Shown here in pieces: positions 817 through 3,219 of a stretch of DNA of 64,000 nt (position 1 is the stretch's first letter; each line of letters begins with the position of its first letter). The translations under genes were made by a program, and so were the position numbers. Origin of the DNA: Methanocaldococcus lauensis (GTDB taxonomy: Archaea > AGJL01 > Methanococci > Methanococcales > Methanocaldococcaceae); the NCBI GenBank assembly GCA_902827205.1, contig LR792634.1:1-64000 (forward strand), in the 5' to 3' direction. Below the pieces are notes generated by a model that worked only from the letters and a program-made list of their open reading frames with translations, was not told the DNA's origin and searched no databases.

Positions 817-2583
817 ATGAGATTGGCTATTATTGACTATGATAGATGTCAGCCAAAAAAATGCTCTATGGAGTGTATTAAATACTGTCCAGGAGTTAGA
901 ATGGGAGAGAAAACAATAGTTATTGATGAAAATACTGGAAAGCCAATTATATCAGAAGTTTTATGTTCTGGTTGTGGAATATGCGTTAAGAGATGTCCAT
1001 TTAAAGCAATATCTATCATAGGATTGCCAGAAGAGTTAAGTGAGGATAAAATAGTTCATTCCTATGGGCAAAATAGATTTAAGTTGTTTGGTTTAGTTGT
1101 GCCAAGAGATGGAGTAGTTGGAATTATTGGTCAAAATGGAATTGGTAAATCTACAGTTTTAAGAATATTGGCAGGAGAATTAATTCCAAACTTAGGGAGA
1201 GATGACAAAGAGCCGAATTATGATGATGTTATCAAGTATTTTAGAGGTTCTGAATTGCAGGAATATTTTGTGAAGTTGAAAAATAAAGAAATAAAGGCAA
1301 TACATAAAGTTCAATATGTTGATATTTTACCAAAAGTTGTTAAAGGAAAAGTTGGAGAGTTGTTAAAGAAAATAGATGAAAGAGGAAAATATAATGAAGT
1401 TGTTGAAAAGTTAGAATTAAAAAATATCTTAGATAGGGAATTACATCAATTGTCAGGGGGAGAATTGCAAAGAGTTGCTATAGCCGCTGCATATTTAAGA
1501 AAGGGAGACATATATTTCTTTGACGAACCTTCTTCTTGGTTAGATATTAGGCAGAGATTCAATGCCGCGAGATTAATAAGGGAGTTAAATAAGGTTGTTG
1601 TAGTAGAACACGACCTAATAGTTTTGGATTATTTATCTGACTATATACATATAATGTATGGGGTTCCTTCAGCATATGGTATTGTTTCACTACCTAAGAG
1701 CGTTAGAGTAGGAATAAATGAATATCTATATGGTGAGTTAAGAGAGGAAAATATAAAGTTTAGAAAGGAGCCAATAATATTTGAAAAAAGACCAGTTATT
1801 GATTATAAAAACAGACCTGTATTATTAACATATTCACCAATGAAAAAAACCTTAGGTAGTTTTAAATTAGAAGTTAGTGGTGGAACTATATACAAAGGAG
1901 AAGTTATTGGAATTTTAGGGCCCAATGGTATTGGAAAGACAACATTTATTAAATTGTTGGCAGGAGTCATTAAACCAGATGAGGGAGAGGTTACTAAAGA
2001 AAGTGAAATTAAAGTATCTTACAAGCCACAGTATATAAGTCCAGATTATGATGGAACTGTTGAAGATTTATTAAGTTCAATAATTAATATTCACACTTCC
2101 TACTATAAATCAGAGATTATTAATCCTTTACAATTAGAAAAATTATTGGATAGGAATGTTAAAGAGTTATCTGGTGGTGAGTTACAGAGAGTGGCAATAG
2201 CGGCGTGTTTAAGTAGAGAAGCAGATATTTATTTATTAGATGAGCCTTCAGCATTCTTAGATGTTGAGCAGAGGTTAGTAGTTTCAAAGGTTATTAGAAG
2301 AATGGCAGATGAGAAAGAGGCAGGAATGTTTATTGTCGATCACGATATGTTATTCCAAGATTATATTTCAGATAGGTTTATCGTATTTAGTGGTGAGCCA
2401 GGAATATACGGAATTGGAAGTAGTCCAATGAATAAGAGGGAGGGAGCAAATAAATTCTTAAAAGAAATGCAAATTACATTTAGAAGAGACCCAGAAACTG
2501 GAAGACCAAGAGCTAATAAAGAAGGTAGCCAAAGAGATATTTTACAAAAAGAAAAAGGAGAGTATTACTATTTGGATGAATAA
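817..2583 (+). CDS. abcE1: Ribosome recycling ATPase ABCE1 (RNase L inhibitor homologue)
   Basis: A soluble twin-cassette ATPase that splits 70S ribosomes into subunits after termination. The N-terminal 70 residues form a double 4Fe-4S ferredoxin domain (CQPKKCSMECIKYCP and CSGCGICVKRCP). The first ATPase has Walker A GQNGIGKST near residue 105, signature LSGGELQRVAIA and Walker B IYFFDEPSSWLD. The second has GPNGIGKTT near 370, LSGGELQRVAIA and IYLLDEPSAFLD. Length 588 aa is standard. The ATG follows a strong GGAGGT site at 805-810. All catalytic and cluster-binding motifs are intact. The gene ends 3 bases from the 3' end of the convergent RNA at 2587-2781. Confidence 0.97.
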   Translation: MRLAIIDYDRCQPKKCSMECIKYCPGVRMGEKTIVIDENTGKPIISEVLCSGCGICVKRCPFKAISIIGLPEELSEDKIVHSYGQNRFKLFGLVVPRDGVVGIIGQNGIGKSTVLRILAGELIPNLGRDDKEPNYDDVIKYFRGSELQEYFVKLKNKEIKAIHKVQYVDILPKVVKGKVGELLKKIDERGKYNEVVEKLELKNILDRELHQLSGGELQRVAIAAAYLRKGDIYFFDEPSSWLDIRQRFNAARLIRELNKVVVVEHDLIVLDYLSDYIHIMYGVPSAYGIVSLPKSVRVGINEYLYGELREENIKFRKEPIIFEKRPVIDYKNRPVLLTYSPMKKTLGSFKLEVSGGTIYKGEVIGILGPNGIGKTTFIKLLAGVIKPDEGEVTKESEIKVSYKPQYISPDYDGTVEDLLSSIINIHTSYYKSEIINPLQLEKLLDRNVKELSGGELQRVAIAACLSREADIYLLDEPSAFLDVEQRLVVSKVIRRMADEKEAGMFIVDHDMLFQDYISDRFIVFSGEPGIYGIGSSPMNKREGANKFLKEMQITFRRDPETGRPRANKEGSQRDILQKEKGEYYYLDE

Positions 2584-2586
2584 CAT

Positions 2587-2781
2587 AAGGAAATACCTTC
2601 TATGGTTGAGGATACCGTTCTGGTTCTCCGCTACAAATGGAACAAATCGTAGCGGAGAGCCTTCCAGCCTCCTAACTTCATTGGCTGGCAATCGGGATTT
2701 AAAAGAAACCACATCTTCAGCTTACCCATTCGGGCTTAGTTTCCTCCACATATCTGGACTGCCGTGTTATAATATATCCTT
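2587..2781 (-). ncRNA. GC-rich structured RNA, family unassigned
   Basis: This stretch is far richer in G+C than its flanks, the classic sign of an RNA gene in an AT-rich hyperthermophile. Read on the minus strand, the ends pair: AAGGATATA (2781-2773) with TATTTCCTT (2595-2587), 8 of 9 pairs. A second long-range helix joins TATGTGGAGGA with TCCTCAACCATA (one mismatch, one bulge). Inside are three hairpins: GAAAC/GTTTC enclosing CCC-GAAT-GGG, CCAGCC/GGCTGG, and a 13-bp stem GGCTCTCCGCTAC/GTAGCGGAGAACC (one G-U). A TATA box (TCTATAAAA, 2813-2805) sits about 25 bases before the predicted 5' end. A 77-codon frame on the plus strand is not a believable protein. It resembles RNase P in GGAGGAAA and AGAAC but lacks the P3/P4 layout. 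Confidence 0.6.
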
Positions 2782-2850
2782 ATTTAAATTTTTGGATAGT
2801 GTTTTATAGAAACAAAAGTATAGATTTGTTTTGTATGTTCTATTTAATTT

Positions 2851-2887
2851 AAGGAAACTGCCCGAATTGTGTTTTACAATAGTTTCA
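2851..2887 (+). other. Hairpin echoing a motif of the neighbouring RNA
   Basis: GAAACT (2854-2859) pairs with AGTTTC (2881-2886), and ATTGT (2866-2870) with ACAAT (2876-2880), leaving GCCCGA bulged. The sequence GGAAACT-GCCCGAAT repeats, in inverted orientation, the GGAAACTAAGCCCGAAT of the RNA at 2587-2781. It could be a partial inverted copy or a separate small RNA element. Confidence 0.35.
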
Positions 2888-3047
2888 CATAGTATTTTTA
2901 TATGTTTAAAGAAAAATTACAGAAATTAGGAAGATATTAAAATAATGAAACAATTATAAAAATCTATATATCCATATATTTATTTATATTGTTATATAAA
3001 TATATAATGTATTAACAAATAAAAAACAAATAAAATAAGATAAATAA

Positions 3048-3122
3048 TGCTCCGGCCGGGATTTGAACCCGGGTCGCGGGCTCGAAAGGCCCGCATGATT
3101 GGCCGGACTACACCACCGGAGC
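3048..3122 (-). tRNA. tRNA-Glu (UUC)
   Basis: Minus-strand cloverleaf of 75 nt. Acceptor GCTCCGG pairs with CCGGAGC, discriminator A. The anticodon stem GGGCC/GGCCC-type arm encloses loop CTTTCGA with anticodon TTC. The T-arm contains GGGTTCAAATCCC. The CCA end is not encoded. It lies downstream of tRNA-Arg on the same strand with 20 bases between them, so both are probably made from the promoter at 3273-3287. Confidence 0.95.
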
Positions 3123-3141
3123 ACATTATAATTAAAAAAAA

Positions 3142-3219
3142 TGGCGGACCCGGGGGGATTTGAACCCCCGACCCCCGGCTTAGAAGGCCGGTGCCCTATC
3201 CAGGCTAGGCTACGGGTCC
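3142..3219 (-). tRNA. tRNA-Arg (UCU), CCA encoded
   Basis: Minus-strand cloverleaf with acceptor GGACCCG/CGGGTCC, discriminator G and an encoded CCA (3142-3144). The anticodon stem CCGGC/GCCGG encloses CTTCTAA, anticodon TCT. The T-arm is GGGGGTTCAAATCCCCC. First gene of a two-tRNA transcript followed by tRNA-Glu. Confidence 0.95.

Follow-up and report, generated by a model that had tools for sequence, protein, structure and literature searches.

A probable TnpB ωRNA on a miniature IS607-family element of Methanocaldococcus lauensis

The closest described RNAs are probably sRk48 and sRk52 of P. abyssi, which were found in 2011 by a screen for GC-rich RNAs and come from repeated Thermococcales loci related to the 3' end of the IS607 OrfB (TnpB) (PMC3124441). 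These RNAs are expressed from a BRE/TATA promoter located 22 nt before the start. They form the stems P0 to P3, with covariation in P0 and P3 and a kink-loop in P2 that binds L7Ae, and their main processed form is 130 nt long and lacks P0 (PMC3124441). IS607 elements use a serine recombinase working on double-stranded ends (PMC4058570), and the guides of known TnpBs measure 16 to 20 nt (PMC10097598, PMC11061315).

Here we analyzed 64,000 nucleotides of M. lauensis (contig LR792634.1, positions 1 to 64,000, hereafter the window), in which a first-pass annotation had pointed out a GC-rich structured RNA gene at 2587–2781. All the features described below lie on the minus strand. The GC-rich block was confirmed (48% GC in 2600–2749, against 12–39% in the flanks, tRNAs excepted), as were the stable fold of the annotated 195 bases (−63.7 kcal/mol, z = −3.96, equalled by none of 200 shuffles) and the position of tRNA-Glu (3047–3123) and tRNA-Arg (3142–3219) upstream on the same strand. 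The description as a minus-strand structured RNA gene without an Rfam family also stood. Only tRNAs were matched by Rfam in the window, with neither an RNase P nor an Hgc match; the other Rfam families gave nothing above gathering score, and the full elements described below were likewise unmatched. The plus-strand frame 2576–2809 gave no NCBIfam match, and the possibility that it encodes a host protein was rejected. Our analysis of relatives indicates that the block is very probably the ωRNA of a TnpB transposon belonging to the IS607 family, and sits on a miniature element devoid of tnpA and of nearly all of tnpB. The suggestion of an RNA without kin was therefore abandoned: the TnpB ωRNA is a kind of RNA already known, and not a new RNA class.

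Relatives, borders and family of the element

A DNA search with window positions 2560–2860 (minus strand) detected a second copy in the same genome (188201–188440, 93% identity). Ten other genomes contain related copies, and the shared borders are sharp. In locus L008 (genome G015), the left and right parts of the window sequence are split by a 404-aa TnpB gene. The same ends surround, in L035 (G001), a TnpB that is 82% identical to the one of L008, and both proteins are TnpB-family nucleases (NF040570; Cas12f1-like TNB domain). Based on the structure of these two loci, the window block thus corresponds to the right end of a TnpB transposon that has lost most of its tnpB gene by deletion.

A scan of named genomes revealed 15 loci with TnpBs 58–64% identical, distributed among Thermococcus, other Thermococcaceae, Archaeoglobales, Desulfurococcales, Baldrarchaeota and Thermoproteota. 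The Thermococcus locus L165 has, between these same ends, an IS607 TnpA (NF033518, 238.5 bits) followed by TnpB; in several other named TnpB loci, the same TnpA end is seen immediately upstream. The left end GGGCTGTTTC is common to the window element and to intact elements of Thermococcus and other archaea that contain TnpA and TnpB; the left end GGGCTGTTTCATAAATAG is common to the full IS607 elements of Thermococcus and the solo copies. Also, an RNA model (R1, see below) matched the right ends of 14 of the 15 named TnpB loci (67–143 bits), as well as those of L008 and L035. In these tnpB-bearing elements, the RNA thus extends over the 3' end of tnpB as well as the right end. As both the left end and the right-end RNA are common with elements carrying an IS607 TnpA, we assigned the family to IS607 and not to IS200/IS605. 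Membership in IS200/IS605 would need a Y1 HUH TnpA, and the full member L165 has an IS607 TnpA instead. The serine-recombinase TnpA is known in the family through L165, the window copy itself being without tnpA. A fragment resembling the start of TnpA in L006 gave nothing in a Pfam scan. No relative of the cognate TnpB was found in viral contigs, and plasmids gave no match.

The whole miniature IS607-type element covers 249 bp (2615–2863), from the left end GGGCAGTTTCC at 2863 to the right end CCAGAACGG terminating at 2615. Its borders are common to 18 copies, and an orthologous copy is present in G041, another genome of the same species. The copies checked start with GG(G/A)C and finish with GAACGG, where the RNA scaffold exactly ends, and the sequence beyond differs at each site. 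Solo copies measure 243–266 bp, elements with tnpB only about 1.3 kb, and full elements about 1.85 kb. Between its two ends, the window copy contains a promoter-like stretch, the ωRNA and a tnpB relic. The left end with the promoter-like sequence (2770–2863) was delimited by an alignment of left ends including the full Thermococcus elements. It holds a TATA-like box, TTTAAATA (2781–2788), read from the sequence, and similar boxes with a similar spacing were seen in other solo copies. The first-pass annotation had placed such a box 25 bases upstream of the predicted 5' end; it is present, at 2788–2781, and lies partly within the annotated block. From its position, the RNA start may be predicted 22–25 bases downstream, near 2757–2763. 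The scaffold defined by R1 occupies 2615–2769 and includes the tnpB 3'-end relic (2631–2714), which reads MWFLLNPDCQPMKLGGWKALRYDLFHL-stop over 27 codons and can be compared with PPESYPMKLGGWKVIRY in L008. The 3' border is 2615 and not 2587 as annotated: positions 2587–2614, a 28-base overrun, are host DNA and differ at every other insertion, while the conserved scaffold starts near 2769 and the mobile unit at 2863. The predicted guide, TATCCTCAACCATAGAAGGT (2595–2614), would be the host flank directly after the right end, outside the element. We also observed that ATTCGGGC-AGTTTCC at the left junction (2866–2852) is complementary to GGAAACTAAGCCCGAAT within the ωRNA (2745–2729), which is probably due to chance, since part of it is host flank.

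An archaeal RNase P RNA, possibly in a minimal form, had been mentioned with doubt in the first-pass annotation because GGAGGAAA and AGAAC recall its conserved motifs. The doubt was justified, although the two pieces turned out to have another origin: the former is a relic of the region coding for the TnpB zinc ribbon (compare CPICGGRMSPNG in L008), and the latter belongs to the right-end terminus CAGAACGG. Moreover, a genuine archaeal RNase P RNA is located elsewhere in the genome (G000:C1:180310–180565, 165.7 bits), the block has no Rfam match, and the element is multicopy and mobile. The genuine gene and the homology to TnpB right ends refute this identity, to which we attach practically no probability.

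RNA fold and covariation

The model R1 was constructed from ten copies, leaving out the lineage of the window, and found a single match in the window (126.7 bits, E = 6.5e-31). Covariation was studied in an alignment of 35 matches, which includes one spurious match to a hairpin of L136 on the reverse strand. In this alignment, 93.6% of the cells pair and 27 of the 36 base pairs change on both sides, a value reached by none of 500 shuffles; when the pair partners were shifted by 1–3 columns, pairing fell to 37–52%. The alignment was fitted to the model and is thus biased towards the structure, the changes being nonetheless visible by eye. Covariation was present in all six helices, including the one formed by the terminal CGG. 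The model-fitted alignment therefore describes a conserved multi-stem fold whose last scaffold bases pair upstream, as in ωRNAs. Among the helices proposed in the annotation, several hairpins are real and conserved across copies; the two outer long-range helices do not belong to the RNA family, because their 3' arms are host DNA.

Hairpin P0 (2725–2761) persists in the window as the 5' arm CAGTCC (2761–2756) and an inner helix, as judged by alignment with the intact copies L003, L004 and L063; its outer 3' arm, ACTGC, was deleted in the window lineage. Covariation in P0 is exemplified by CAGTCCC/GGGACTG in L003 versus GGTGGTCTCC/GGAGACCACC in L021. Hairpin P1 (2694–2710), positioned by alignment and covariation, is weakened (GGUUU/AAAUC versus GGGGAG/UUCCCC in intact copies), and is absent from the single-sequence fold of the window copy. 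Hairpin P2 (2664–2688) is constituted of CCAGCC/GGCUGG with a kink-loop-like AAU-GA...GA, and four of its six pairs change on both sides across copies; by a rough pattern, RAU-GA...GA was found in 25 of the 35 rows. The long terminal stem P3 (2622–2661) has 13 pairs with 94.7% of cells paired, and eight of these pairs show two-sided changes, for example GGTTATCC... in L005 versus GACTCTCC... in L035. Finally, the terminal CGG (2615–2617) pairs with CCG at 2695–2693 (helix 4), with 99% of cells paired and two-sided changes at all three pairs in some copies. A pseudoknot between this CGG and a CCG of the P1 loop was also envisaged, and was rejected by eye since the variants L152, L145 and L164 favour the CCG after P1.

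Hairpins are frequent at transposon ends, and the block could be a transposon relic whose hairpins matter as DNA, as binding sites of the right end, and not as RNA. Against this, the family is IS607, whose serine recombinase works on double-stranded ends (PMC4058570), and not IS200/IS605. In addition, the fold covaries and accommodates G-U pairs, part of it lies in what used to be tnpB coding sequence, and its stems are the same as those of the expressed P. abyssi RNAs. We consider a role restricted to DNA very improbable, and retain the ωRNA.

Mobility, partner nuclease and present state

Both main sites occupied by the element in the window genome are also occupied in G041, the other genome of the species. 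In G041, an ATPase gene is moreover interrupted by a third copy, L063, which is intact; the window genome has the empty, open allele of this gene. Similarly, L003 sits in an acyltransferase-like gene of G009, and the window genome again shows the empty, open allele. These two empty alleles reveal no long target duplication and the element has no terminal inverted repeats, as expected for IS607. GG is found at both borders of every copy and the insertion point is G-rich; the G counts at the two empty sites (GGGGG and GGGCG) fit no single simple GG-crossover scheme. No ancestral empty site could be read for the window locus from G009 and G005, where the genes downstream are different ones.

P0 has an 8-base deletion at site 1 of both genomes (window copy and L039) and at site 2 of the window genome (G000, copy L013), and this deletion is absent from site 2 of G041 (L053). 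Such a distribution is suggestive of homing or of gene conversion among the copies of G000. In L013, the sequence flanking the element, which is also its predicted guide (L013:1391–1502), is a dispersed repeat, apparently the right end of yet another TnpB family. Also, genome G023 carries five nearly identical solo ωRNA elements of 262–264 bp (L005, L015, L020, L022, L024), and its own TnpBs reach no more than 36% identity with the cognate one. This implies a recent spread by an enzyme since lost or not recognised. The full IS607 elements of G023 were rejected as parents of these solo copies, as their right ends (...GACCCC) differ.

Four R1 matches were detected in the window genome, and no cognate TnpB was found there. 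Its best TnpBs are 30–36% identical over longer stretches, and were discarded as partners because their right ends are unrelated and not matched by R1. By descent the block is thus a guide-RNA gene, for which no partner was found in this genome. The search for an intact IS607 TnpA in this genome gave just one broken fragment. The window copy scores 126.7 bits with R1, versus 193–212 bits for intact copies. Since neither the cognate TnpB nor an intact TnpA was found, one P0 arm is lost and the copy is worn, the window copy is probably an idle, inactive relic in this genome. Thus, the kind of RNA is clear, and its present activity in the window genome is doubtful. As a separate observation, the window genome contains two TnpB elements of another family, L029 and L028 (G000:C1, near 493.5–494.7 kb and 1030.6–1031.7 kb), of 1130 bp and 99.9% identical, with the ends GGGTTTGAAAC and GAAAACGG; a related locus of G009, L088, has a broken resolvase-type TnpA gene upstream.

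The host could also have domesticated the ωRNA as a regulatory RNA, working for instance with a TnpB of another family in this genome. Both genomes of the species have retained the two sites, the changes in P1 and P3 of site 1 between the two genomes preserve pairing, and other TnpB genes are present. However, the position is not conserved beyond the species, no conserved target was found, the right ends that go with the other TnpBs are different, and among all copies in the species that of the window is the most worn. Domestication hence appears very unlikely to us, and we maintain a transposon ωRNA that has probably become idle.

Across the order, ωRNA-only copies (R1 gave 57 matches in 14 of the 36 genomes) far exceed close cognate tnpB genes, which were detected (E <= 1e-50) in 3 of 41 genomes, the gene of one being interrupted by stops. 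Nine further-checked genomes contained no TnpB above 36% identity to the cognate one. Dozens of solo copies thus exist in related methane-making archaea, mostly in genomes without a found matching TnpB. On these elements, which have the ends of full IS607 elements, are repeated and mobile, and keep by covariation a fold whose scaffold ends at the element border, the left-end promoter would drive an RNA reading through the right end into the host flank. The scaffold would bind a TnpB supplied in trans, and the first 16–20 bases of the flank would act as guide, by analogy with other TnpBs. Since the sequence of this flank is also that of the unoccupied target beside the G-rich insertion motif, chromosome copies without element may be cut there by TnpB, and repair from the filled copy would keep or spread the element. 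These archaea are polyploid. We tentatively hypothesize, with less than even confidence, that solo ωRNA elements of Methanococcales could be a self-sufficient class of mobile guide genes, with their own promoter and with TnpB (and TnpA) borrowed in trans, in which the borrowed nuclease converts the empty chromosome copies of polyploid cells, so that they may outlive the parental TnpB genes. The cutting step is taken from published work on other TnpBs (PMC10097598, PMC11061315, PMC10278001). The excess of ωRNA-only copies makes it testable whether guide RNAs can function and propagate with no nuclease gene linked to them. Also, an unassigned GC-rich RNA becomes a defined ωRNA family matched by no Rfam model, which is a warning that screens for GC-rich noncoding RNAs in hyperthermophiles pick up transposon guide RNAs.

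Comparison with described guide RNAs

Altae-Tran and colleagues reportedly described, in 2021, stand-alone ωRNAs of IscB elements without an adjacent nuclease gene. IscB is a different nuclease family, and the solo copies described here keep both transposon ends, and are thus miniature mobile elements. The ωRNA of the ISDra2 TnpB, from IS200/IS605, likewise covers the tnpB 3' end and the right end, pairs its terminal scaffold bases upstream and takes its guide from the flank; it differs by the Y1 transposase family, the RNA sequence and the target motif (PMC10097598). The IS607 TnpB of ISFba1 uses a right-end guide RNA, the RAGATH-18-derived reRNA, as in our case, and its G-rich target-adjacent motifs (AGGAG or GAGGG) constitute another likeness (PMC11061315). 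Nevertheless, the ISFba1 RNA is bacterial and lies wholly outside the coding region (PMC11061315), whereas the present RNA overlaps the tnpB 3' end and has no Rfam match.

The nearest resemblance is probably with sRk48 and sRk52. Compared by their published description, these RNAs agree with the present family in the stems P0–P3, the P2 kink-loop, the IS607 OrfB 3' end and the upstream promoter, while the window copy has a damaged P0 and a weak P1. The distance from just before P1 to the right end is 106 nt in the window, compared with about 116 nt for L005, and the 130-nt form would therefore include a short guide. If the mature RNA has no P0, the damage of P0 in the window lineage need not abolish function. 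The paper of 2011 gave no guide-RNA interpretation (PMC3124441); we infer from these likenesses that sRk48 and sRk52 may themselves be ωRNAs of the present type.
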